Part shown: positions 48,168 through 60,850 of the stretch, piece by piece | Numbering within the stretch: position 1 is the first letter of the stretch | Layout of the letters: the number at the start of each line of letters is the position of its first letter | Source of the DNA: an uncultured Clostridia bacterium | Lineage (GTDB): Bacteria; Bacillota; Clostridia; Lachnospirales; Lachnospiraceae | Direction: 5' to 3' | NCBI GenBank assembly: GCA_948467395.1 | Contig: CAOKDX010000005.1 | Location: forward strand, 106,405 to 170,404 | DNA: 64,000 nucleotides | Notes under the pieces: model-generated | What the model was told of the DNA's origin: nothing | What the model saw: only the letters and a program-made list of their open reading frames with translations | Database searches by the model: none | Translations under genes and position numbers: made by a program

Positions 48168-48283
48168 CCGGACCATTTAAAAGAAGGCAGGACAGAAAGG
48201 AAATATGATGCGAATAAACGGGGTGCATTTACAATTTCATAAAAGTGTCAAATATGCCTAATTGCTATGGGTGGATATGAAAT

Positions 48284-48320
48284 ATAAGTATTTGTTATTT
48301 TTGCAAAGTGGTGTTATATT
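48284..48320 (+). promoter_or_regulatory. LysR-type promoter copy A
   Basis: ATAAGTATTTGTTAT (48284-48298) contains a T-N11-A dyad (TAA-N7-TTA). Its TTGTTA serves as -35, then 17 bases, then TATATT (48315-48320). The same 15-base element with the same spacing occurs at 53587 and 59310. Confidence 0.72.
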
Positions 48321-48383
48321 GAATGACAGAGAAACCTGAAAAGAATCATAAAAGAAGGGATTGCCTGAAAGGGGGCTTGCAGC

Positions 48384-48647
48384 ATGAGTGCAGCGATAAA
48401 CAATGATCCGGAACGGGAGCACATCGTTTTGAACATGAAAGATGCCGGATGCAGCGAAGATACGATACAGCGTTTTTTGCTTTGCTATCAGGCAGATGAT
48501 ATAAAAGGGGAATTAAAGATCCTGTCAAATCACAGGCAGGTATTATTGGATGAGGTTCATAAGGGGCAGAAGGAAATTGACTGTCTGGATTATCTCGTGT
48601 ATCAGATAGAAGAAGGTCTGAAAACAAAAGAATCAGGAGGCAGATGA
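48384..48647 (+). CDS. Small protein of unknown function upstream of an aldo/keto reductase remnant
   Basis: 87 residues, probably helical: MSAAINNDPEREHIVLNMKD, then AGCSEDTIQRFLLCYQADD, ending in a charged tail. AAGGGGGC precedes the ATG. Its stop overlaps the start of the reductase remnant by ATGATG, so the two were once coupled. No signal or membrane segment. I do not know a function. It is the first gene after promoter copy A. Confidence 0.62.
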   Translation: MSAAINNDPEREHIVLNMKDAGCSEDTIQRFLLCYQADDIKGELKILSNHRQVLLDEVHKGQKEIDCLDYLVYQIEEGLKTKESGGR

Positions 48648-48933
48648 TGGAATGCAGGGTAAACCGGCGGACAGGGGATAGAATCAGTGTGATAGGGCTG
48701 GGTACCGGCATCTGCTGGAGTTTTTCGATGCGGCAGAGGAGGAACGGGATTATTCCGTACTTGGTTCCTATACACCTGTGGAAATGGCAGCAGACCATTA
48801 TCAGAATTTGGAGCTTCATGCGGATTCCTGCATCCGGTGCGGGCATTGCGAATCACGTTGTCCGTTCCATGTAAAGCAGATGGCAAGGATGGAGGAAATA
48901 GAATCCTTTTTTGCTCACGCAGACGGGAGGTGA
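48644..48933 (+). pseudogene. Aldo/keto reductase with a large internal deletion
   Basis: The first 20 codons read as an aldo/keto reductase start (RVNRRTGDRISVIGLGT). The reading frame then changes near 48710 and the other frame gives the reductase C-terminus: LEFFDAAEEERDYSVLGSYT and the ferredoxin-like end CIRCGHCESRCPFHVKQMAR. The whole catalytic barrel of about 280 residues is missing. The remnant stops at a TGA that also lies in the ribosome site of the next gene. Confidence 0.8.
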
Positions 48934-48938
48934 TACCA

Positions 48939-49697
48939 TTGAATAAAAACAAACGGATAAACTTAATCTTTTCATTGATGCTTGTTGCCAGTCTGTTGTC
49001 GGCGCTGACTTTCTCCCCCGTATCTATGATAAGGGCGGAGGCAAAAACAAAATTGTCTGTGACAGTGAAGGTTGGCTTAAAAAAGGTGAATAAAAAGACA
49101 ATCAATATGAAAAAGGGCAGCAGCAGAAAAATAAAATTATCTATTGTACCAAAGCAGTCAGGAATTAAGAAAACATACAAATGTTCCAAGAAGGATATTG
49201 TGTCTGTCAGCAGAACCGGAAGGCTGAAAGCGAAGAAGGCAGGTACGGCAAAAATAACGGTTACGTTGTCAGGTAAAAACATTCGGAAAACGAAGCTGTG
49301 GTTTCAGGTAAAGGTAATCCGTCAGAGCGGTTCTGTCAAAAAGGAGGGCACATCCGTCATGCTTAACGTAAACGGACAGTCATTTCAGGCGGTATTTTAT
49401 AACAATAAAACAGCAAAGGCATTGCTGGAGAAAATGCCGATGACACTTAACATGAAAGAATTAAATGGAAACGAGAAATATCACTTTTTTGATACCGAAT
49501 TTCCTACCAATGAAAAGTCACCGGGAAAAATTTCAGCAGGGGACATTATGTTGTATGGTTCGGATTGTCTGGCGACATTTTACAAATCGCATAGTACCTC
49601 TTATCAGTATACGCCTGTGGGGAAGATTGAGGATGCCTCCGGTTTTGCAAAGGCAGTGGGGAGCGGAAATGTAACCATTATATTTACTGTAAAATGA
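48939..49697 (+). CDS. Exported protein with an Ig-like (BIG2) domain and a cyclophilin-like domain
   Basis: 252 residues from a TTG at 48939 with GGGAGGTGA 5 bases upstream; the longer frame runs through the reductase remnant. A signal peptide (INLIFSLMLVASLLSALTF, cleavage near AEA) leads to a Lys-rich BIG2-type domain (residues 40-130, KKAGTAKITVTLSG) and a cyclophilin-like fold (SVMLNVNGQSFQAVFYNNKT, YGSDCLATFYKS, YTPVGKIED). Substrate or enzymatic activity is unknown. A related domain is encoded at 59399. Confidence 0.75.
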   Translation: MNKNKRINLIFSLMLVASLLSALTFSPVSMIRAEAKTKLSVTVKVGLKKVNKKTINMKKGSSRKIKLSIVPKQSGIKKTYKCSKKDIVSVSRTGRLKAKKAGTAKITVTLSGKNIRKTKLWFQVKVIRQSGSVKKEGTSVMLNVNGQSFQAVFYNNKTAKALLEKMPMTLNMKELNGNEKYHFFDTEFPTNEKSPGKISAGDIMLYGSDCLATFYKSHSTSYQYTPVGKIEDASGFAKAVGSGNVTIIFTVK

Positions 49698-49758
49698 GGC
49701 GGGATGCAGGGCATAAAACTACCGCATTTTCTTATAGGAAAGTTCGCCTTGTGCGGAG

Positions 49759-49783
49759 CAAGAATTGCCATAGGAAATTCTTG
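49759..49783. other. Hairpin before the metallo-hydrolase gene
   Basis: CAAGAATT (49759-49766) pairs perfectly with AATTCTTG (49776-49783). No T-run follows. It lies in the 147-base gap between two genes in which I see no clear promoter. Confidence 0.4.
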
Positions 49784-49844
49784 GAGTGTTGTGGTTTTCA
49801 GCCAACGCTTTTTTTAGAAAACCGGCTTGAAAGGATGAGGCAAA

Positions 49845-50975
49845 ATGAGGAAATTCATAAAAAATCATAAGTGGATAAAAGCTATCATAATACTTTTGGT
49901 TCTTCTTATGATTTTGCTGTTGTCGGCACTGTTGTTTTTGAACTTATGGCCTGCCTTTGGCGGCAGGGCTTCGGCGGAGGATCAGAAAAATTATGGAGCC
50001 AGGGCAGAGAATTACCGTGATGGGAAGTTTTATAATGATGGCAATTTTCAGATTGTCAGGGAAACAGAGCAGGCGGATGAATGCATTATATCCCAGAAGG
50101 GAACGAAACCGGAGGGAGAGATTCCGGTGGCAAAACCGGGTTTTGATGAGGAATTGCCGGAGGATGAAGTCAGGGTAACCTGGTTTGGACATTCTTCCCT
50201 TCTTCTTCAGATGCATGGGATGAATATACTGATTGACCCGGTATTCAGTGAAAGAAGTTCCCCGGTATCTTTTGCAGGGAATAAACGCTTTTCGCATCCG
50301 CCTGTTGAAGCAGGGGAATTGCCTTCGATTGACCTGCTAATATTGTCCCACGACCATTATGACCATCTGGATTATAACGTGATAAAAGAAATCGACGAAA
50401 AGGTGGAACAGTATATCGCACCGCTTGGTGTGGAAAACCATCTGAAACGTTGGGGCGTGGAGGAAAAGAAAATCCGGAATATGGCATGGTGGGAGGAAAC
50501 GACAGTTGGCGGCCTTACAGTGGGCTGTACGCCGGCAAGGCACTATTCGGGAAGAAGCCTGAATGACCGGTTTGCAACGCTTTGGGCGTCCTGGGTATTT
50601 CAGGATGAATACCATAAGGTGTTTGAGAGCGGGGACAGCGGGTATGGCAGTCAGTATGAGAAGATTCGTGATAAATATGGTGAGTTTGATTTTGTCATGA
50701 TGGACTGCGCCCAGTATGATGTGAACTGGCCGGAAGTCCATATGTTCCCGGAGGAGGCTGTCCAGGCAGCGCAGACACTTGGTGCGAAAGCGGCAATGCC
50801 AATCCATTGGGGTGCTTTTGCACTGGCGAACCATCCGTGGGATGATTCTGCAGAGCGTTTTGTAGCGTCGGGGGAGCAGGCGGGATTACAGATTGTAACG
50901 CCGCAGATCGGGGAGACAATGAATTTGAACAGTATGGGAAATAGCATGAAACGCTGGTGGAAAGATATTTTATAG
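49845..50975 (+). CDS. Membrane-anchored metallo-beta-lactamase-fold hydrolase (NAPE-PLD/UlaG-like)
   Basis: 376 residues. An N-terminal helix (AIIILLVLLMILLLSALLFL) anchors the protein outside the cell or in the membrane. The MBL core shows VTWFGHSSLLLQMHGMNILI, the metal motif SHDHYDHLD, then PARHYSGR, VFESGDSGYG and PIHWGAFALANHPWDD. These motifs fit the group containing N-acyl-phosphatidylethanolamine phospholipase D. The natural substrate is unknown; an amide or phosphodiester lipid is possible. Confidence 0.85.
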   Translation: MRKFIKNHKWIKAIIILLVLLMILLLSALLFLNLWPAFGGRASAEDQKNYGARAENYRDGKFYNDGNFQIVRETEQADECIISQKGTKPEGEIPVAKPGFDEELPEDEVRVTWFGHSSLLLQMHGMNILIDPVFSERSSPVSFAGNKRFSHPPVEAGELPSIDLLILSHDHYDHLDYNVIKEIDEKVEQYIAPLGVENHLKRWGVEEKKIRNMAWWEETTVGGLTVGCTPARHYSGRSLNDRFATLWASWVFQDEYHKVFESGDSGYGSQYEKIRDKYGEFDFVMMDCAQYDVNWPEVHMFPEEAVQAAQTLGAKAAMPIHWGAFALANHPWDDSAERFVASGEQAGLQIVTPQIGETMNLNSMGNSMKRWWKDIL

Positions 50976-51019
50976 CCCGCTTCTATGGATATGGGTTGTT
51001 TTGGAGAGGAGGTATTGCC

Positions 51020-51308
51020 ATGCAGTACAAGAGTAAAATAATTTCCTGTCTTTTGGTTATTTGTTTGTTATTCAGTTCTTTGTACATAGACAGAATGCCT
51101 GTTTCAGCGGCGGGCAAAATAAGGGTAACTGTATCCAAGAAGAAAAAATGTTGTCTCTTCGCCAACAAAATCCCCGGTTCCTTCATCAATGGATATACCG
51201 ACGATAGAACCGTCTGGCATACCGACAGAAGAGCCATCTATTCACCCGGCTTTATTACCGTCAGAGAGTCCTGCACCGGATACAGCCGTTGTTTCGGAAC
51301 TGTATTAG
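51020..51308 (+). pseudogene. Exported Pro/Ser/Thr-rich protein, frameshifted at an A6 tract
   Basis: ATG 51020 follows GGAGAGGAGG. The product begins with a signal peptide (SKIISCLLVICLLFSSLYID, then PVSAAGKIRVTVSKKK). At 51143-51148 an A6 run occurs. Dropping one A restores a secreted-style linker, NVVSSPTKSPVPSSMDIPTI, then EPSGIPTEEPSIHPALLPSE, up to a TAG at 51306. As written, the ATG frame instead continues to 51352 with an unrelated Cys/His/Arg-rich tail. Any downstream domain is lost. Confidence 0.6.
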
Positions 51309-51433
51309 ACAGACACAACGAAAAGCATCATGCGGAAATTGCCGTTATCTAGTTCTCCGATTATGTATGCAAGTTGCATCGGTTATTTTACTACAGTTCC
51401 TTAATTCAGAGTAAGAGATTGGAGAATGGTTAT

Positions 51434-52552
51434 ATGAAAAAAGTAATCAGCCACCTGATTATGCTGTTACTTATAGTCTCTATGCTGGCGGCAGGATGTG
51501 GAGAAACAGAACTGGCGCAGAGAGAAAAGGGAAGTGAGGATTTGCAGTCCGAACAGGGAAATGGAGAACGGAAGGCGGAGGATGCAGACATTATTACCTT
51601 GACATCTGAAATGGTTTCTCTGGAGGATGGTTTTTCTGCCGTAAAATATGCAGGGGACTATAAACTGGATCAGTTTCTGGAGCAGGGCGGGGCATCTTCG
51701 GATGCGGACGTGATGAAATTCTTGACAAAGCATCTGTTTTCTGGGAAGTCTGTTTTGGAGTTTTTTGGAAATCTGTTTGGGTGCAGTACCTTATCTGTTC
51801 AGAATGCAGACGGAAGCTGGCTTTTCGGAAGGAATTTTGACTGGAATACCTGTGATGCCTTAGTCGTCAGCACGGAACCGGAGGAAGGATATGCCTCCAT
51901 CTCTACGGTAAATATGGACTTTATTCAGGCAGCGGCAGGGATGGAACTGGAACGTCTTCCAGATGAAATGAAAACGATGGCGGCATTGTATGCACCGCTG
52001 GATGGGATGAATGAAAAGGGGCTTTGTGTCTCTGTGAATATGATTGAAGATTCTGCCTCGATTGCGCAGGAGACAGATAAGAAGGATATTACCACGACAA
52101 CAGCAGTCCGGCTGTTGTTAGATCAGGCAGCAGATGTAGATGAGGCATTGGAACTGTTAAAAGAATATGACCTGCATGCCTCAATGGGAATGATGGTACA
52201 TTTTGCACTGGCAGATGCAAAGGGTAAAGCTGTGGCGGTAGAATATATTGACAATGAAATGGTGGTTACAGATACGCCGGTGGTAACGAATTTTTATCTG
52301 GCAGAGGGAGAAAAGCATGGAATTGGGACAGAGCAGTCCCATACCCGCTATGAGATTCTGACAAAGCTGATGAAAGAAAAGAAAACGATGGATGGGCAGG
52401 ACGTCAGGGATGCACTGGACAGCGTCAGCAAAGATAATTTTGATGAGCCCTCGTCAACGGAGTGGAGCATTGTGTTTCATCAGGGCAGCGGGGAGGCATG
52501 GTATTATCACAGGGAGAATTACGACAAAGTATATAAATTCCGAATGAAATAG
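51434..52552 (+). CDS. Lipoprotein Ntn-hydrolase (choloylglycine hydrolase/acyltransferase-like)
   Basis: 372 residues from ATG 51434; the longer frame lacks a ribosome site. A lipobox (LAAGC) ends the signal. After a 95-residue linker the hydrolase begins at Cys117 (FGCSTLSVQNADGSWLFGRN, then FDW), the expected nucleophile of linear amide C-N hydrolases; GMNEKGLCVSVNM and the terminal EWSIVFHQG also fit. It may hydrolyse N-acyl amides at the cell surface. Whether the Cys is freed by self-cleavage is not clear. Confidence 0.82.
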   Translation: MKKVISHLIMLLLIVSMLAAGCGETELAQREKGSEDLQSEQGNGERKAEDADIITLTSEMVSLEDGFSAVKYAGDYKLDQFLEQGGASSDADVMKFLTKHLFSGKSVLEFFGNLFGCSTLSVQNADGSWLFGRNFDWNTCDALVVSTEPEEGYASISTVNMDFIQAAAGMELERLPDEMKTMAALYAPLDGMNEKGLCVSVNMIEDSASIAQETDKKDITTTTAVRLLLDQAADVDEALELLKEYDLHASMGMMVHFALADAKGKAVAVEYIDNEMVVTDTPVVTNFYLAEGEKHGIGTEQSHTRYEILTKLMKEKKTMDGQDVRDALDSVSKDNFDEPSSTEWSIVFHQGSGEAWYYHRENYDKVYKFRMK

Positions 52553-52576
52553 TAAACCCGGATTTTTAAAATATAG

Positions 52577-52619
52577 AAATGGGATAGGAAAAATGTTAAG
52601 TTTCTTCTATCCCATTTTT
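52577..52619. terminator. Bidirectional terminator between the hydrolase and lysR
   Basis: AAATGGGATAG (52577-52587) pairs with CTATCCCATTT (52607-52617), followed by TT on the plus strand and an AT-rich tail on the minus strand. It separates two convergent genes. Confidence 0.8.
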
Positions 52620-52622
52620 GTA

Positions 52623-53507
52623 TTAGTTTTCACTCAGCAGTTTTTGAAACTCTTCCAGAAATTTCTTTGCGGCTTTGGGAAATACCTGATACTTTTTCCA
52701 TAGCAGGCTCATACCTGCGTTTAACGCTGGTTCGCAGGGAACAAAGCAAAGATTGCTGTTTCCGTCAGTATTGATGATTTTATCCAGAGCAAAAGCATAT
52801 CCCAGCCCTTCATCCACCATCAGGGAGGCATTAAACAGTAAGTTGTAGGTTGCAGCTACATTTAATTCCGAAAGACTTTTGCCAAGCCATGAGGTCAGTA
52901 GATCACCATCACGGGTGTTGCGGTTAAACATGATAGGTTTATTATGAAGGTCTTCCGGTCGTATGCAGTTTTTTTCCGCAAGAGGGCTGTCTTTCCTCAT
53001 TAAAATTCCATATTTGTCTTTGACCGGAAATTCCAGATATTCATATTTTGAGGCGTCAATCGGACCGAATATCATACCAAAATCAATCAGCCCTTTATCC
53101 AGGCTTTCTAAAACGTCTGTTGAGTCACCGCTGGAAATATGGTAGTGGATGTCAGGATATTCCATCTGCACTTTTTTTCCGGCTTTGGCAAGCAGGCGGA
53201 CGGCATCGGTTTCTCCGGCGCCGATGTATACGTCCCCGGCGATCACATCATCAGAAATGGTGATTTCATGTTCTGTCTTTTGTACTAAATCAAGGATTTC
53301 TTCTGCACGTTTCCGCAGGATCATGCCTTCCTCCGTCAAGGTGATTTTGCGGTTTCCCCGTATCATAAGCTGTTTTCCCAGTTCCTTCTCCATGTCTTTT
53401 AACTGCCTGGAAAGAGTAGGCTGGGATAGATGCAGGGCCTCTGCAGCGCCGGAAATGCTCTGCTCTCTAGTAACGGCAAGAAAATATTGAAGAACGCGTA
53501 ACTCCAT
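52623..53507 (-). CDS. LysR-family transcriptional regulator
   Basis: 294 residues from MELRVLQYFLAVTREQSISG, with AAGGAGG before this ATG. The helix-turn-helix lies at residues 18-37 (AAEALHLSQPTLSRQLKDME); the rest is a periplasmic-binding-like effector domain. Its promoter and a divergent promoter share the region 53508-53779, which holds one of three identical LysR-type boxes. It is therefore the best candidate regulator of the surrounding genes. A fragment of a paralogue remains at 60712-60800. Confidence 0.93.
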   Translation of the reverse strand: MELRVLQYFLAVTREQSISGAAEALHLSQPTLSRQLKDMEKELGKQLMIRGNRKITLTEEGMILRKRAEEILDLVQKTEHEITISDDVIAGDVYIGAGETDAVRLLAKAGKKVQMEYPDIHYHISSGDSTDVLESLDKGLIDFGMIFGPIDASKYEYLEFPVKDKYGILMRKDSPLAEKNCIRPEDLHNKPIMFNRNTRDGDLLTSWLGKSLSELNVAATYNLLFNASLMVDEGLGYAFALDKIINTDGNSNLCFVPCEPALNAGMSLLWKKYQVFPKAAKKFLEEFQKLLSEN

Positions 53508-53538
53508 GTCAAATCCTCCTTTTCGCAATTTTAAGTAG

Positions 53539-53567
53539 AGTATAATTCATTATAATATAACTGTCAA
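53539..53567 (-). promoter_or_regulatory. Promoter of lysR
   Basis: On the minus strand TTGACA (53567-53562), 17 bases, TATACT (53544-53539), almost full sigma-A consensus. Box B lies 20 bases upstream of its -35, a usual place for LysR autoregulation. Confidence 0.85.
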
Positions 53568-53586
53568 GCATGGTTAAATATGCGAT

Positions 53587-53623
53587 ATAAGTATTTGCTA
53601 TGAATAAGGCAATGTATTATAGT
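53587..53623 (+). promoter_or_regulatory. LysR-type promoter copy B, divergent to lysR
   Basis: ATAAGTATTTGCTAT (53587-53601), TTGCTA as -35, 17 bases, TATAGT (53618-53623). The following leader of about 150 bases is AT-rich and has no clear structure. Confidence 0.78.
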
Positions 53624-53779
53624 GGTGATAGAAGTTAAAAAAATTAATACATATTTTCATTTGAAATATTTCACTTATGGTGGTGCCGATGAAAGTGGCG
53701 TGTCATTTTAATTAGCAGATAGGAAAGCAACACAAACATTGCAATAAGCGCAAAGTGCAGCGCAGAAATGAGGTAAATT

Positions 53780-54631
53780 ATGAAAACAATAACAGGCGAA
53801 AGGTTTGACAGGGAACGGGCTTTGTATGGAAGTGATGGGCTGATTTTGCGTCACTGTTCCTTTGATGGCCCGGCGGATGGAGAGAGTGCGTTAAAGGAAA
53901 GCAGGAATGTACAGACGGAGGATTGTTTCTTTAATCTCCGTTATCCGTTCTGGCATGACGACCATATGAAAATTGTGGGTTCGGAAATGACAGAGCTTTG
54001 CCGGGCGGCGTTGTGGTATTCACGAAATGTTGAGATTGTGCATACGAAACTGCATGGGATCAAGGCGCTGCGGGAATGCAGCCAGGTAAAGATGAAAGGC
54101 TGCGATATTGTTTCGCCGGAATTTGGCTGGTCAGTGCATCAGATGGAAATGGAAAATTCAACGGCAGAGAGCGAATATTTTATGATGCGTTCCGATTTTC
54201 TTACCTTTCGTAATGTAACACTGAAAGGAAAATATTCGTTCCAGTATATTGAAAACTCAGTTTTTGAAAACTGTAATTTTGATACGAAGGATGCTTTCTG
54301 GCACGCCAAAAATATTGTGGTAAGGAACAGTGTAGTAAAGGGGGAATATCTGGCATGGTACTGTGAGAACGTGACCTTTGAAAACTGTAAGATTATTGGC
54401 ACACAGCCACTGTGTTACTGTAAAGGACTGAAACTGGTTGACTGTGAGATGGTGAATACAGATTTGTGCTTTGAGAAATCGGAGGTGGAGGCCACGATCA
54501 AGACTCCGGTGGATAGTATTAAAAATCCTCTTGCCGGGCACATTTATGTCCCATGTGTAGGGGAGATTATCCGGGATGATGAAAAATCAAAAGGCAAAGT
54601 GATTTTGCCGAAAAAGTGCTGTTGTGCTTAG
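53780..54631 (+). CDS. DUF3737 right-handed beta-helix protein
   Basis: 283 residues of short repeats such as NVTFENCKIIG, SVFENCNFD and LKLVDCEMVN, typical of a parallel beta-helix. The family DUF3737 is widespread in gut Firmicutes with no known function. There is no signal peptide, so it is probably cytoplasmic. GAGG precedes the ATG. It opens the operon driven by promoter copy B and lies 16 bases before the adenylating enzyme. Confidence 0.85.
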   Translation: MKTITGERFDRERALYGSDGLILRHCSFDGPADGESALKESRNVQTEDCFFNLRYPFWHDDHMKIVGSEMTELCRAALWYSRNVEIVHTKLHGIKALRECSQVKMKGCDIVSPEFGWSVHQMEMENSTAESEYFMMRSDFLTFRNVTLKGKYSFQYIENSVFENCNFDTKDAFWHAKNIVVRNSVVKGEYLAWYCENVTFENCKIIGTQPLCYCKGLKLVDCEMVNTDLCFEKSEVEATIKTPVDSIKNPLAGHIYVPCVGEIIRDDEKSKGKVILPKKCCCA

Positions 54632-54647
54632 ATGGAGGAATTATGCT

Positions 54648-56093
54648 ATGGGACAATGCCGTTTGCTGTGGAATTTATTTGGACTAAAAAGAAATGAGCA
54701 TAAGACAAGAAAGCAGGTTCAGGCTTTACAGGATAAAAAATTGCGGAAACTCCTTTATTATGCCTATGACCATTCTGATTATTACAAAGAAAATTTTGAG
54801 CAGAATGGCATTGCCAGGGAACAGATTGGGAGTCTTCCCCTGTCTGCCTTTCCGACAATGGATAAAGCCAAACTGATGGAGCATTTTGATGAAATTGTGA
54901 CAGTACCAGACATCAGTCAGGAGGAACTTCGAAAATTTGATGAAAATGTCTCTTTGGTGGCGAGCCATGATGTCACGCCGGATAAAAAACTGTTTCGGGG
55001 AAAATACCATGTGGTACATTCGTCAGGCAGTACCGGGGTGCCAAGATATTTTGTGTACGATAGTTCTGCGTGGGACAGTATGCTGTTAGGGATTATCCGT
55101 GGGGCTTTGTGAGATATGACAATGCCGCAGATTTTGAAACTCTTGTCTGGAGGCCTGCGGATTTTATACATTGCTGCCACCGATGGACGGTATGGCGGTG
55201 CAATGGCAGTAGGGGATGGAATCCGTGGTGTAGGGGCAGAGCAGAGGTTTCTGGATATCAAAACGCCACTTTCGGAGTGGGTTCAGACGGTCAGGGAATT
55301 TCAGCCGGGTATTATCATTGGCTATCCGTCTGCCATAAAGATTTTGGGAGAATTGGTAGCGAACAGTGAGGTTTCCGTAGATGTGTGCCGTGTGATTTCA
55401 TGTGGAGAGCCACTTGCACCGGGACTCAGAGATTATCTGGAGAAAACTTTCGGGACAGTAGTTGTAAACTTTTATGGCGCTAGTGAGTCATTGGCATTGG
55501 GGGTAGAGACAGACAGGGAAGAAGGAATGTACTTGTTTAATGACATGAATTATATTGAAGTGGAAAATGGAAAAATGTATCTGACCTGCCTTTACAATTA
55601 TGTGCAGCCCCTTATCCGTTATGAGATTTCTGACCTGTTAATATTTCGACAGAGCAAAGAAAGCAGATATCCGTTTAGGCAGGCAGATATTCTACTTAGC
55701 AGAAGTGAGGATGTCATATGGTTTGAAAGCAATGAGGGAAAACGTGATTTTCTTCATCCGCTGGCGGTAGAGGGTATCTGTGTGGAGGGGCTTATGGATT
55801 ACCAGTTCCGAAAGACAGACAAAGATGCTTTTGAAATGCTGGCACAGGTCTCGAACCAGGAAAAGAAACCCCATATAAGACGGGAAGTCATACAGCAGAT
55901 GGAGAAAATCCTCCATGAAAAAGATATGGACAGCGTCCGTTTTTTTATCCGGTTTGTGGATGAAATTCTGCCAGATGCCAGAACGGGGAAAAAACAGTTG
56001 ATCGTGCATGAGGAAAATGTCTCGTCAGTGGCGGGCCAAAAGAAATTTGAAAAAAGCATTCGAAAGGAAAAGGAAGTGAGGGATGCGGTTTGA
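54648..56093 (+). pseudogene. PaaK/LuxE-like adenylate-forming enzyme interrupted by an in-frame TGA
   Basis: 481 codons from ATG 54648, eight bases after GGAGG. Part 1 holds LRKLLYYAYDHSDYYKENFE and the nucleotide-binding loop HSSGSTGVPRYFVYD. At 55110-55112 a TGA follows IIRGAL. Part 2 continues in the same frame (DMTMPQILKLLSGGLRILYI, GYPSAIKILGEL, VVVNFYGASES, LIRYEISDLL). Related enzymes have Trp at this position, so a TGG-to-TGA nonsense mutation is likely. The two halves are otherwise intact, and the 3' end is coupled to the ABC gene. Confidence 0.82.
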
Positions 56094-56875
56094 GCACAGG
56101 AAATGTGTTATTGCAGGGCAGGCATATCTGCAAATCATATCAGCAGGGCAAAAAAAGCAATTCGGTACTCCATGATGTAAATATAGAAATATATGATTGT
56201 GATTTTACAGTAATTATGGGTTCCTCTGGTGCAGGAAAATCTACATTGCTTTACTGCCTAAGCGGAATGGACTCCATTTCAGACGGTGAGGTGTTGTACC
56301 AGGGAGAGGAAATCAGCCGGTACCGGGAGAAACAGATGGCAGCCCTGCGGACAAAAGAGTTTGGTTTTGTGTTTCAGCAGACACACCTTGTCAGTAATCT
56401 GACATTGTATGAAAATGTAGCAGTTGCCGCTTATGCGGGAGGGGGAAGAACGGCAAAAGAGGTTCAGGACAGGGCGGAGGAACTTCTCACCAGGATGTGC
56501 GTGGGAGATGCAGCCATGCGGTTTCCCTCACAGGTGTCCGGTGGGGAGGCGCAGAGGGCGGCCATTGCAAGGGCAGTTATCAACCATCCCAGTCTGGTAT
56601 TTGCCGATGAACCGACAGGGGCATTAAATAAATCGAACAGCGAAGAAGTGTTAGGGCTTTTGTCAGGCCTGCATAAAGAGGGGCAGGGCATTGTTATGGT
56701 AACTCATGACGTCAGGGCGGCGCTTTATGGGACGCGGATTCTTTATATGGAAGATAGAAAGATTCTGGATGAGCTTGCAATAGGTGAATATGAGGAAAAG
56801 GACGGAAAAGAGGCAACTTATCTGAAGACGAGGGAGAAGAAAATTACGGAGTGGCTTTCTGCCCTGCATTGGTAG
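56090..56875 (+). CDS. MacB/LolD-type ABC transporter ATP-binding protein
   Basis: 261 residues, TTG start overlapping the upstream stop by 4 bases (TTGA). Walker A MGSSGAGKSTLLYCLSGMD near residue 44, Q-loop FVFQQTHLVSNLTLYENVAV, signature VSGGEAQRAAIARAVIN, Walker B LVFADEPTGALN. The sequence and the FtsX-type partner place it in the MacB/LolD/BceA group that moves peptides or lipids or senses envelope stress. Confidence 0.93.
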   Translation: MSTGNVLLQGRHICKSYQQGKKSNSVLHDVNIEIYDCDFTVIMGSSGAGKSTLLYCLSGMDSISDGEVLYQGEEISRYREKQMAALRTKEFGFVFQQTHLVSNLTLYENVAVAAYAGGGRTAKEVQDRAEELLTRMCVGDAAMRFPSQVSGGEAQRAAIARAVINHPSLVFADEPTGALNKSNSEEVLGLLSGLHKEGQGIVMVTHDVRAALYGTRILYMEDRKILDELAIGEYEEKDGKEATYLKTREKKITEWLSALHW

Positions 56876-56902
56876 GAAAGATGTGAAAGAAGGTGGATCA
56901 AG

Positions 56903-59254
56903 ATGGAATATTTCACATTGTGGAGAGCGGGTGCCAGAAGGCATAAGGGCAGCCTTGCCGGAGTTTTTCTTTTGCTGCTGCTTATCAGTCTTGCACTGGG
57001 AACTGTCCTGACGCTTTGGAATAATTCGGGAAGTTATATCCGCTCCGAAATGAGGCGGGCGGGCTTTGGAGATTTGACAGCGTGGGTGCATGATGTTCCG
57101 GAACAGGTCGGACTGGCGGATGAGATTGCCGGTCTGGATGCGGTGGAACGGGTGGAGAGCCAGCGTGTGATTTATGCAGATTATACGATAAAGGAGCAGG
57201 AATCCGATAGTCAGGGACAGCTCATTCCTCTTGCTGCAGAGGAAAATAAATACCGTTTTTTTTTGAATGACCTTTCCGGCTATCAGGAAAAGAAACCGGA
57301 GATTGCCCCCGGAGAAATGTATGTTTCCCCGTCGATGGTTTCTATGTTTGGCCTTAGGGCCGGGGATGAAATTAATTTTGCCATTGCCCGGTCAGGTGGA
57401 AATTTTACTTTTCGGGTTAAGGGATTTTATGAAGACCCATTTATGGGAAGTTCCATGATTGGCATGAAGGGATTTCTGGTCTGCGAGGCAGACTGGAAAG
57501 AAATTCAGCAGATAATTCAGGAGAGAGGGAGAAATGCACTGGCAAGGGAAGGGGAGATGCTTCATATTTTTTCAGATGACAGGGAGTCCATTTCGGATTT
57601 AAACCGTATGATGAATGAGAACACGGCGCTTTCCCAGTATACAGAGTTTATCCACAGCGAGGATGCCATAGCGGGTTTTATGCTTATTCTGCAGAATGCA
57701 TTCAGCGGGCTTCTCATTGCGTTTGTTTTTGTACTGCTTTTTGTGGCAATGGTAGCGCTGGGGCATAGTCTAAGCAGTGGAATAGAGGCAGATACGGTAA
57801 ACATGGGGATTTTAAAAACCGTGGGTTTTACGACGGGAAAACTTCGGCAGATTCAGCTTATGCAGTATCTTACAGCGATTGTCAGCGGCATGATGGCAGG
57901 ATTCGTTTTGTCTGTTCCTGTCAGCCGTATTGCCAGTGACAAAATGATAACGACAACGGGAATCCATGTTCCTGTGAAGCTGCCGCTTGGATGGATTTTG
58001 CTGTCCGATCTGGCTGTGCTTTTGCTGCTTATTCTGTTTATTTATCTGAAAACAGGAAAGGTCAGCCGCATCACGCCGATGATGGCAATCCGTGGGGAAG
58101 GACTGGCGCAGTTACCATTTGCGGAAAAGACGGCAGTATGCGGCATAAAAAAGAATGCCCTGTATTTCCGGCTTGCCATAAGGCAGCTTGCCACAGCGAA
58201 AAGGCAGTACATCAGTGCCTGTATCGTGGCAGTCCTGCTTGTGTTTTTTGCCTCACTGGTGGGACGGATGGATTCGTGGCTTGGCAGAGATGGAAAGGGG
58301 ATGATGGATGCTTTTAATCCGGCAGACCATGATATCGGGGTGCAGGTGTTTGGCGAGCTTACTGCGGATGAGGCGGAAGAACTGGTTTCCTCTTATACAG
58401 GGATTACAGACAGTTATCTGCTTGCTATGCCAAACGTGTCAGTAAATGGAACAAGTTATACTGCTAATGTAATTTCAGAGCCGGAACGGTTTCACATAAT
58501 GCGGGGCAAGACCTGCCAGAGCGAACACGAGATTGTCGTGACAGAGTTTGTGGCTAAGGATATGGATGTAAAAGTGGGAGACAGGCTTATGGTGCAGGGC
58601 GATAAAGGCCGTGAGGAATATACGGTTTCTGGCATTTACCAGTGTGCCAATGACATGGGAGCCAATATCGGCATGAGTAGGGAAGGGTATCTGAAAATCG
58701 GGCAGGATGATCCCCATCTGTGGTGCTATCATTATTTTCTTGCGGATAGTTCTATGAAAGCGGAGATTACAGAGGCGCTGGAGACGGCGTATGGCGGCGA
58801 CGTTCACGTACATGAAAATTCGTGGCCGGGATTGTTTGGCATTATTTCTGCGATGCGGGCATTAGTTCTGTTTATGTATGGGATGGTGTTTGTATTTATA
58901 CTGATTGTCACCGTCATGACCGGCAGTAAAACCCTTGCGGCGGAAACAAAGGATTTGGGAATTTATAAGGCGGTTGGCTTTACAAGTACGAAATTGCGTT
59001 TCACATTTGCCATGCGTTTTTTCCTGACCGCTGTGGCTGGTTCTGTTATAGGAATACTTTTGGCGGCTGTCTGTACCGATTCACTGGTATCAGTGGTAAT
59101 GAAACTTGCCGGAATCAGCAATTTTGCGTCACATCCGGGGCTGGGAGAGATCTTGTTCCCGGCCGGGGTAGTCATCCTTTTGTTTATGGGATTTTCTTAT
59201 CTGGCGGCAGGCAGGATAAAAAGAGTGGCTGTCACCGTTTTAATGGGAGAATAG
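56903..59254 (+). CDS. FtsX-like ABC transporter permease
   Basis: 783 residues with two FtsX-type modules. Helices lie at the N-terminus (GVFLLLLLISLALGTVLTLW), around 265-390, near 440 and at 650-775. Two large extracellular regions, after the first helix and around residues 460-640, are typical of lipid or peptide exporters. It follows its ATPase by 27 bases. It could export or shield against a compound related to the adenylating enzyme upstream, but this is speculative. Confidence 0.9.
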   Translation: MEYFTLWRAGARRHKGSLAGVFLLLLLISLALGTVLTLWNNSGSYIRSEMRRAGFGDLTAWVHDVPEQVGLADEIAGLDAVERVESQRVIYADYTIKEQESDSQGQLIPLAAEENKYRFFLNDLSGYQEKKPEIAPGEMYVSPSMVSMFGLRAGDEINFAIARSGGNFTFRVKGFYEDPFMGSSMIGMKGFLVCEADWKEIQQIIQERGRNALAREGEMLHIFSDDRESISDLNRMMNENTALSQYTEFIHSEDAIAGFMLILQNAFSGLLIAFVFVLLFVAMVALGHSLSSGIEADTVNMGILKTVGFTTGKLRQIQLMQYLTAIVSGMMAGFVLSVPVSRIASDKMITTTGIHVPVKLPLGWILLSDLAVLLLLILFIYLKTGKVSRITPMMAIRGEGLAQLPFAEKTAVCGIKKNALYFRLAIRQLATAKRQYISACIVAVLLVFFASLVGRMDSWLGRDGKGMMDAFNPADHDIGVQVFGELTADEAEELVSSYTGITDSYLLAMPNVSVNGTSYTANVISEPERFHIMRGKTCQSEHEIVVTEFVAKDMDVKVGDRLMVQGDKGREEYTVSGIYQCANDMGANIGMSREGYLKIGQDDPHLWCYHYFLADSSMKAEITEALETAYGGDVHVHENSWPGLFGIISAMRALVLFMYGMVFVFILIVTVMTGSKTLAAETKDLGIYKAVGFTSTKLRFTFAMRFFLTAVAGSVIGILLAAVCTDSLVSVVMKLAGISNFASHPGLGEILFPAGVVILLFMGFSYLAAGRIKRVAVTVLMGE

Positions 59255-59309
59255 GGGTTGAATAGGTGGGAACTTAGATATGCCTGCTTGTTATATCCCA
59301 ATATCCATG

Positions 59310-59346
59310 ATAAGTATTTGTTATGTGCGTGGTAATGATTTATAGT
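59310..59346 (+). promoter_or_regulatory. LysR-type promoter copy C
   Basis: ATAAGTATTTGTTAT (59310-59324), TTGTTA as -35, 17 bases, TATAGT (59341-59346), 53 bases before the lipoprotein gene. Identical core to copy A and one base different from copy B. Confidence 0.78.
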
Positions 59347-59398: not shown

Positions 59399-60010
59399 AT
59401 GAAAAGCAAAGGTATGGTTTTTATGTCATTGTTTCTGTTTATTGCTGTTATGATGTCCGGATGTGGAGCATCGGATGAGAAGGAAAGACAAGACACAGAT
59501 CGCGCAGCCAGTGTATCTCAGGAAAGCAAGACCTCGGATGAAAATGCTGCAGTCAGTACGGATGGGCAGGATGAATCGGCAGATGATACAGAAAAAGTTT
59601 CTGCCGGGGAATTAGAAGTATGTTTTGGGGATAAGGGTAATCCATTTATGCTTCAGTTAAACGACAGTGATACTGCCGCAGCGATTGCGAGGTATGTGGG
59701 GACTTCTGACTGGCGTCTGCCTATTTATGAGGATGATGAGGATGCCGATTATGATGTGATGCAGTATTATGATATTCCAAGCAGCTACGATATTCCGTCT
59801 AAGCCGGAAAAGGTGACTTCGGTAAAGGCAGGGGAGGTGTATTATTCGGACCCCAACCGTATTGTTCTCTTTTATCAGGATGCGGGAGTTTCTGAAGAAT
59901 ATACACCGGTAGGCCATTTTGATGCCACGGATGAATTTGTGGAGGCGGTGAAGAATAATCCAGTACTGGAAGGATGGGGAAATAAAATCGTCCTGATTAC
60001 GAAACCGTAA
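59399..60010 (+). CDS. Cyclophilin-like fold lipoprotein
   Basis: 203 residues. Signal peptide with lipobox MSGC at residues 19-22 or so, an Asp/Ser-rich linker to about residue 80, then a cyclophilin-like domain (ELEVCFGDKGNPFMLQLNDS, AGEVYYSDPNRIVLFYQDAG, EYTPVGHFD). The domain is related to that in the exported protein at 48939, and both follow the same promoter type. Peptidyl-prolyl activity is not implied; the motif-level match is to cyclophilin-like proteins of unknown role. Confidence 0.78.
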   Translation: MKSKGMVFMSLFLFIAVMMSGCGASDEKERQDTDRAASVSQESKTSDENAAVSTDGQDESADDTEKVSAGELEVCFGDKGNPFMLQLNDSDTAAAIARYVGTSDWRLPIYEDDEDADYDVMQYYDIPSSYDIPSKPEKVTSVKAGEVYYSDPNRIVLFYQDAGVSEEYTPVGHFDATDEFVEAVKNNPVLEGWGNKIVLITKP

Positions 60011-60024
60011 GCAGGGAGGTCGGT

Positions 60025-60636
60025 ATGGCAGTTTTTTTCCTACGGGGAGTGCTGATTGGAGTGTTGTTTGGTGTTCCGGCAGGGGCAGTGGGCGCCATGA
60101 CGGTGCAGAGAACATGGAATTATGGAATCAAGGCTGGCCTTTTAACAGGGCTGGGCTCTTCTGCTGCGGATTGTATCTATGCCTGTGTTGGCGCTTTTGG
60201 CCTGACGGTTATTTCAGAGTTTCTCTTGAACTATCAGACTGTGATAAATCTGGCAGGGGGAGCACTGGTGCTGTATATGGGGTTTCCTCTCTTGCTTTGT
60301 AAGAAAAAGCCGGATGAAATCCCATCGGTGTCCAGAAGAATAAAAACGTTTCTTTCCTCCTTTCTTGTGGGCATTACCAATCCGGCAGCTGTGTTGACTT
60401 TTTTATTTGCCTTTTCTTATTTTGGCATTTCAGGCGACACGAATCTCATACAGGGGATATGCCTTGTCATCGGAGTTTTTCTTGGCACTTACCTTTGGTG
60501 GACAGCGCTTTCTGTTATAGTAAACATATTGAAAGGAAGACAGAAAAAGGACCATCTGCAGATAATGAACCGGATATTTGGAGTGATTTTGTGTCTGTTT
60601 GGTATGGTGGTATTTATACGCATAATCATAAACTAA
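60025..60636 (+). CDS. LysE-family exporter
   Basis: 203 residues with six hydrophobic helices. The N-terminus shows LIGVLFGVPAGAVGAMTVQR and the family motif GLGSSAADCIYACVGAFGL; FLVGITNPAAVLTFLFAFSY lies in the middle. Such proteins export amino acids or small metabolites. It starts 15 bases after the lipoprotein gene and shares its promoter. Confidence 0.88.
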   Translation: MAVFFLRGVLIGVLFGVPAGAVGAMTVQRTWNYGIKAGLLTGLGSSAADCIYACVGAFGLTVISEFLLNYQTVINLAGGALVLYMGFPLLLCKKKPDEIPSVSRRIKTFLSSFLVGITNPAAVLTFLFAFSYFGISGDTNLIQGICLVIGVFLGTYLWWTALSVIVNILKGRQKKDHLQIMNRIFGVILCLFGMVVFIRIIIN

Positions 60637-60710
60637 ACAAACTGACACGCCGCTGAAAGCGTCATCACCATCTTTAAAAGTTGATTGTCGGTTCTATCGC
60701 ATTTTTGGGC

Positions 60711-60850
60711 GTTAGTTTCTATCCAGCAGTTTTTGAAACTCTTCCAGAAACTTCTTTGCCGCCTTTGGAAATACCGGATACTTTTTCCATAGCAGGCTCA
60801 ACCAATGTCGTTTGCTGTGGAATTTATTCCGGCTAAACAGAAATGAATAT
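60711..60850. pseudogene. Scar: lysR 3' fragment fused to an adenylating-enzyme 5' fragment
   Basis: 60712-60800 closely matches the lysR 3' end at 52623-52711, and 60801-60850 matches the start of the adenylating enzyme near 54651-54703. Both have diverged in several places and neither can be translated. The order is that of the intact locus with about 2 kb removed at AGGCTCA/ACCAATG. The rest of 60637-60932 shows no gene. Confidence 0.8.

Follow-up and report, generated by a model that had tools for sequence, protein, structure and literature searches.

Does a single LysR-type regulator control the genes that follow three near-identical promoters in one locus of an uncultured Clostridia bacterium (Lachnospiraceae; genome of 2.99 Mb)? 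The locus lies in a stretch of 64,000 nt, analysed as a whole and referred to here as the window, whose numbering is used for all coordinates. Its comparison with orthologous loci, with other genomes of the family and with the remainder of the host genome leads us to propose, with a probability of roughly 85%, that the three elements are operators of the LysR protein encoded at 52623-53507, organized in a predicted three-dyad layout with sigma-70-type promoters.

The 15-mer ATAAGTATTTGYTAT occurs exactly and on the + strand at 48284, 53587 and 59310 (sites A, B and C), where the original prediction had placed it; a window scan allowing up to 3 mismatches returned 4 matches against 2.94 expected, three of these being the exact ones. 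The further claims of that prediction largely hold. The copies contain T-N11-A, and each supplies a -35 element (TTGTTA, TTGCTA and TTGTTA in A, B and C, respectively) that is separated by a 17-base gap from a -10 element (TATATT, TATAGT and TATAGT). The TAA-N7-TTA core ascribed to all three is found in A and C, B reading TAA-N7-CTA. Copy B does sit in the divergent lysR region, between the diverging lysR and DUF3737 genes.

The original prediction suggested a comparison with the promoters of orthologous loci. We performed it on the best 80 of 389 passing LysR candidates (58-96% identity; the query was an alignment of four orthologues), the 80 lysR loci covering 1.13 Mb of sequence. The motif was found in them 41, 36 and 24 times with 0, 1 and 2 mismatches, compared to 0, 2 and 5 times for the motif read backwards and 0, 0 and 4 times for one shuffled pattern. 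A site (the motif with no more than 2 mismatches, up to 400 bp upstream of lysR) was present in 63 of the 80 loci, always on the opposite strand (30 exact, 22 with one mismatch, 11 with two). Among the 17 remaining loci, 6 score above 25 with the operator matrix on the opposite strand within 500 bp, and the operator is therefore counted in 69 of 80. Many of these loci belong to Lachnospiraceae bins, and that of Blautia schinkii (L076) has an exact site. Distant site-bearing relatives include Anaerorhabdus furcosa (L089; Erysipelotrichaceae, exact) and Flavonifractor sp. (L102; Oscillospiraceae, one mismatch). The orthologous locus of Sellimonas caecigallum (L052), also a member of Lachnospiraceae, is without a site.

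Aligned on the motif, these sites indicate that the reported 15-mer belongs to a larger predicted operator composed of three inverted repeats (IR1, IR2 and IR3, the last being the 15-mer itself). When the dyad AT-N11-AT was tallied at 106 offsets around the 63 divergent sites and 34 other opposite-strand sites (three two-mismatch matches on the + strand and one overlapping match in locus L048 being omitted), it peaked at -30, -7 and 0, with 62, 61 and 55 of the divergent and 28, 29 and 31 of the other sites; of these peaks only that at -30 is independent, as the sites were picked by the motif, making offset 0 and the right arm of -7 circular. The next-best offset reached 11 and 7 sites, respectively, and the median was 0. 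All three dyads occur together in 52/63 divergent and 25/34 other sites. The two-mismatch subset of the latter is weak (4, 5 and 7 of 9 for the three offsets), and some of these nine sites probably reflect chance. A box with no more than one mismatch to TATAAT follows TTGYTA after 17 bp at 51/63 divergent and 22/34 other sites. The right arm of IR2 overlaps IR3, which explains the GTAT inside the 15-mer.

The sample of 120 family genomes, which may overlap with the 80 lysR loci, contains the exact motif in 11 genomes (15 sites, 4 of them in the host genome itself) as compared to 3 sites for the backwards control. Eight of the 11 exact sites outside the host genome are flanked by homologues of LysR or of the cassette genes, and the remaining three are unlinked. 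The companion dyads follow the same division: the -7 dyad is present at 12/12 cassette-linked sites (including the four of the host) vs 0/3 unlinked, and the -30 dyad at 10/12 vs 0/3. These three unlinked matches, in L027, L031 and L032, lacking cassette genes and both companion dyads, were rejected as operators and taken as chance. An extended pattern gave 24 sites in 16 of the 120 genomes (backwards control, 5 sites). A LysR orthologue (E 1e-60) is encoded in 13 of these 16 genomes, as compared to 51 of all 120 (Fisher p 0.00097). A second cut-off, E 1e-100, was picked after the list was seen and gave proportions of 10/23 vs 6/97 (p 3.9e-5).

A scan of the entire host genome, another check suggested by the original prediction, revealed 4 exact copies of the motif and none of the backwards pattern, all four being confined to two loci that share their gene families. 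The fourth copy is located on a 12.9-kb contig (C31), where it precedes a paralogous cassette encoding three Cyclophil_like2 proteins, a C-N hydrolase, an intact adenylating enzyme, DUF3737, MATE and LysE, as well as an ATP-binding cassette (ABC) ATPase and an FtsX-type permease assigned by clustering with those of the window; the contig edge holds what reads as the end of another C-N hydrolase. The Cyclophil_like2 genes found in the genome, five in total, all fall in these two loci.

The best surviving alternative, which we nevertheless judge improbable, is that the sites are true operators with this LysR protein acting at B alone and another regulator acting at A and C. It draws on 3 of the 16 site-bearing family genomes, which are without a LysR orthologue at E 1e-60 (also a point against our own interpretation), and on the sequence of IR1, which resembles TGTCAAGC or TTTCAAC at divergent sites but ATGCCTAATTGCTAT at A and C. 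The latter difference is explained by the -35 element of lysR itself, which sits in the divergent IR1: a lysR-facing TTGAMA (at most one mismatch) is found within IR1 at 60/63 divergent vs 3/34 other sites, the predicted lysR -35 and -10 spanning -25 to -20 and -48 to -43 relative to the motif, clear of IR3. At the same time the two kinds of site agree in IR2, IR3 and all spacings. As for candidate regulators, the genome has two LysR-type genes, the second being 24% identical to that of the window and without an exact site, and no helix-turn-helix (HTH) model exceeds its cut-off in the family of the 87-aa open reading frame (ORF) behind site A.

We give still less credence to recently duplicated promoters that were carried along with duplicated cassette genes and answer to no common regulator. 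Duplication as such did occur. In addition to the paralogous cassette on C31, a remnant at 60692-60846 consists of 109 bp 87% identical to the 3' end region of lysR (52605-52711) and 44 bp 89% identical to the start of the adenylating-enzyme gene (54654-54697), with all between missing; the window locus is duplicated and partly eroded, its operators still intact. Against such an origin of the sites, the sequences around the three sites are unlike one another outside the dyads, and the same operator precedes different first genes in the distant L089 and L102. Moreover, the median pairwise operator identity is 0.32 in the spacers and 1.0 in the dyad columns, the 63 divergent operators forming 62 groups at 90% and 48 groups at 50% spacer identity. 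With spacers close to random in sequence and dyad columns in agreement, the sites are regarded as conserved and not as recent copies, which is also what had originally been argued.

Chance recurrence of an AT-rich 15-mer resembling a -35 element has a negligible probability: when 2 mismatches are allowed, the host genome contains no more copies of the motif than of its backwards control (22 vs 23, so that only exact copies stand out by count) and the 3 unlinked family sites would fit it, but the four exact genome sites all lie in cassette loci with operator-matrix scores of 61, 56, 32 and 33 (from a matrix partly trained on the near relatives L038-L040), none of the 18 inexact matches (1 with one mismatch, 17 with two), which we rejected as operators, reaches a score of 5, and both the companion dyads and the conservation across genomes far exceed the other offsets.

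Several further observations, together with the circularity, the possible sample overlap and the matrix training given above, weigh against our interpretation. Eleven of the 80 loci have no operator near lysR, and a short upstream sequence (<500 bp) applies to just one of them, L047. Both lysR promoter boxes are recognizable with at most one mismatch each at 33/63 divergent sites (vs 1/34 others). IR1 fails at one family site; it also fails at the C31 site, where the -10 element (TAAGAT) is poor. The strict extended pattern is missing from 38 of the 51 LysR-bearing family genomes, whose sites may be lacking or have diverged further. Finally, several genes of the window locus are broken, and it may be decaying.

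Overall, the site counts at the orthologous loci and the dyad counts among the divergent sites support the one-regulator claim of the original prediction, and a regulon of this LysR protein, to which the C31 paralogous cassette would also belong by virtue of the common operator, is very probable. How it would operate can be suggested from studied relatives. In the absence of inducer, a LysR tetramer would occupy IR1 and IR3, thereby covering the target -35. Upon binding of a small-molecule inducer the downstream dimer would slide 7 bp upstream to IR2, which would free the target -35 and activate the targets. IR1 would be held in both states, and it is for this reason that lysR is expected to be autorepressed. 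By analogy, such a switch, combining autorepression with inducer-dependent activation, is likely.

The features of the locus are collected in Table 1.

Table 1. Predicted regulatory elements and genes of the window locus
Feature	Position	Strand	Basis or remark
Operator A, IR1 (upstream dyad)	48254-48268	+	AT-N11-AT, 30 bp upstream of motif
Operator A, IR2 (48277-48291) and IR3 (48284-48298, the reported motif), overlapping	48277-48298	+	motif scan, dyad census
Promoter A, -35	48292-48297	+	inside IR3
Promoter A, -10 TATATT	48315-48320	+	17 bp from -35
87-aa ORF, first gene behind site A	48384-48647	+	~80-aa family, invariant CLDYL; no Pfam match over cut-off
Aldo/keto-reductase remnant	48644-48912	+	both ends kept, middle gone
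Big_2 + Cyclophil_like2 protein	48939-49697	+	PF18050, E 7.1e-30; export by N-terminus reading
Metallo-beta-lactamase-fold hydrolase	49845-50975	+	PF12706; N-terminal membrane segment by reading
C45-type autoproteolytic amidohydrolase	51434-52552	+	PF02275, PF03417; NF040521 over cut-off; lipoprotein by reading
LysR-type regulator, 294 aa	52623-53507	-	PF00126 (78.1 bits), PF03466 (82.9 bits), both over cut-off
lysR -10 TATACT	53539-53544	-	17 bp from lysR -35
Operator B, IR1	53557-53571	+	dyad census; contains lysR's own -35
lysR -35 TTGACA	53562-53567	-	within operator B IR1
Operator B, IR2 (53580-53594) and IR3 (53587-53601)	53580-53601	+	motif scan, dyad census
Promoter B, -35	53595-53600	+	inside IR3
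Promoter B, -10 TATAGT	53618-53623	+	17 bp from -35
DUF3737 protein, first gene behind site B	53780-54631	+	PF12541, E 6.4e-111
PaaK/F390-synthetase-like adenylating-enzyme gene	54624-56093	+	in-frame stop; open frames 54624-55112 and 55116-56093
ABC ATPase	56090-56875	+	PF00005
FtsX-type permease	56903-59254	+	PF02687
Operator C, IR1	59280-59294	+	dyad census
Operator C, IR2 (59303-59317) and IR3 (59310-59324)	59303-59324	+	motif scan, dyad census
Promoter C, -35	59318-59323	+	inside IR3
Promoter C, -10 TATAGT	59341-59346	+	17 bp from -35
Cyclophil_like2 lipoprotein, first gene behind site C	59399-60010	+	PF18050, E 8.4e-12; lipobox by reading
LysE-type exporter	60025-60636	+	PF01810

The genes listed as controlled in the original prediction are all present, the term "exported" that it applied to the cyclophilin-like proteins resting on a reading of their N-termini. 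It did not mention the genes between A and B, i.e. the 87-aa ORF, the aldo/keto-reductase remnant, the metallohydrolase and the C45-type hydrolase, nor the in-frame stop of the adenylating-enzyme gene. A longer aldo/keto reductase gene occupies the equivalent place in L038 and L039. In L038 the 87-aa ORF, aldo/keto reductase, cyclophilin-like, NAPE-PLD-like and C-N hydrolase genes form a single called operon behind one site, which supports, without showing it, a single unit transcribed from site A in the window. The best solved-structure match of the metallohydrolase is NAPE-PLD (4qn9, E 2.3e-51); it lies beside the C45-type amidohydrolase, and such a hydrolase is present in 2 of the 80 LysR loci. 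A bile-salt-hydrolase identity was rejected for the C-N hydrolase of the window (41.7 bits with NF038245 vs a cut-off of 350), which passes for the broader C45 family. Separately, an ORF at 50957-51352 combines an export-signal-like start with an odd tail and is possibly a remnant of another exported cassette protein.

The genes behind the sites were tallied across loci (272 genes behind 102 sites), clusters being named by one representative each. A called operon is available for 88 sites; the simple gene caller gave none for the other 14, including site A of the window, where an antisense ORF was preferred. The most frequent families are the cyclophilin-like and ~80-aa proteins (32 loci each) and DUF3737 (26), followed by ABC ATPase (16, possibly of mixed subfamilies), C-N hydrolase (16), hexapeptide acetyltransferase (13), adenylating enzyme and FtsX (9 each), flavin reductase (7), aldo/keto reductase and alpha/beta hydrolase (6 each), CMD-cupin (5), SDR (4), LysE and Fe-alcohol dehydrogenase (3 each) and MATE (2). 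The ~80-aa family, with homologues in loci L038 to L117, has ten invariant columns including C67-L-D-Y-L71 (26 sequences aligned). None of the 26 members scanned matched a Pfam family over cut-off (the best being RecX_HTH1, E 0.0018), 1 of 2 members scanned matches NmlR (E 0.0025), and a PDB profile search placed MerR chains (E 0.14-0.25) below designed helical-repeat proteins; at most a weak resemblance to the C-terminal part of MerR-type regulators may be proposed.

What such a regulon is for can be addressed only tentatively. The recurring set of cyclophilin-like lipoproteins, FtsX-type ABC transporter, C45 amidohydrolase, adenylating enzyme, hexapeptide acetyltransferase and reductases (flavin, aldo/keto and short-chain, with Fe-alcohol dehydrogenase, LysE and MATE transporters being less frequent) might serve to modify, reduce and export a small molecule that is either noxious or a signal. 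A broader proposal, which we consider unlikely, is a core stress or signalling regulon of many gut Clostridia and some Erysipelotrichaceae that would sense a gut small molecule and answer it by reduction, deacylation and export. In that case the exported cyclophilin-like lipoproteins and the ~80-aa family, which is perhaps a MerR-type protein devoid of its DNA-binding part, would be hitherto unrecognised proteins that bind the compound. The compound could be a reactive carbonyl or, given the NAPE-PLD-like hydrolase, C45 amidohydrolase and acyl-adenylating enzyme of the window, an N-acyl lipid. An N-acyl-lipid regulon as the core function was dropped because of the rarity of the NAPE-PLD-like hydrolase noted above.

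The original prediction spoke of a candidate for an undescribed system. This stands for the gene set, no description of which was found in the open-licence PMC literature; the kind of system, a LysR regulon, is a known one, and the operator is also found at a second locus. As a DNA signature, the operator delimits a predicted regulon in many uncultured Firmicutes of the gut, and it links DUF3737, Cyclophil_like2 and the ~80-aa family to one predicted regulator. As it predicts targets from sequence alone, regulon content and inducer can be tested in cultured carriers such as B. schinkii. The predicted gene-control circuit, with exported proteins, redox enzymes and transporters as its putative targets, is widely conserved in gut Firmicutes and apparently unstudied.

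The window protein has the HTH_1 and substrate domains of LysR-type transcriptional regulators, and the T-N11-A promoter dyads are conserved across its orthologues. Its best NCBIfam model is CidR (NF047520, near full-length, E 7.5e-40), with 136.9 bits vs a cut-off of 415, which places it outside that family. LpLttR of Lactiplantibacillus plantarum is likewise a LysR-type regulator from a Firmicute of the gut; in the part of its description used here (PMC9019972), its regulon is small, its box is AT-rich and 15 bp long, and it binds its own promoter. The present system resembles it on these points, with binding to the lysR promoter being predicted; it differs in the box itself, (A/T)TAC-n7-(G/A)(T/A)a(T/A) in LpLttR, for which that part notes neither a cyclophilin-like nor a DUF3737 target. 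Of the solved LysR structures, that of CatM (2h98) is one of the closest. According to the portion of PMC6628147 drawn upon, BenM and CatM bind three dyads with T-N11-A at benA and catB, sites 1 and 3 for repression and sites 1 and 2 for activation with effector. Three dyads and T-N11-A recur here, whereas ATAC-N7-GTAT does not (the fourth base of IR1 is C in 33%, that of IR3 is A in 80%, and the twelfth base of IR3 is never G), nor do aromatic catabolism genes.

The closest layout is that of the group-two operators OxyR-oxyS, IlvY-ilvC and CynR-cynTSX, which, as outlined in the section of PMC5002191 considered, have three inverted repeats between a divergent gene pair, with IR2 and IR3 overlapping and IR1 over the regulator promoter; binding to IR1 and IR3 represses, and inducer shifts the protein to IR1 and IR2. 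Here, too, three inverted repeats are present, IR2 overlaps IR3, IR3 lies over the target -35, and IR1 overlaps lysR's own promoter (60/63). The repeats of CynR (ATAA-n7-TTAT) are centred at -66/-44/-34 in the same source, and those described here at about -66/-43/-36, assuming a transcription start 7 nt after the -10 element; the IR2-IR3 offset is 7 bp here vs 10 in CynR. On the other hand, group-two IR3 as portrayed there overlaps both promoters, whereas here IR2 and IR3 are clear of the lysR promoter and IR1 covers the lysR -35; in addition, the operator recurs at non-divergent operons, the targets are unrelated and the phylum is another. As its IR3 does not overlap the lysR promoter, we file the operator as group-two-like and not as a member of the group; by analogy, it would add a well conserved Firmicute example to the three-dyad LysR-type switches.

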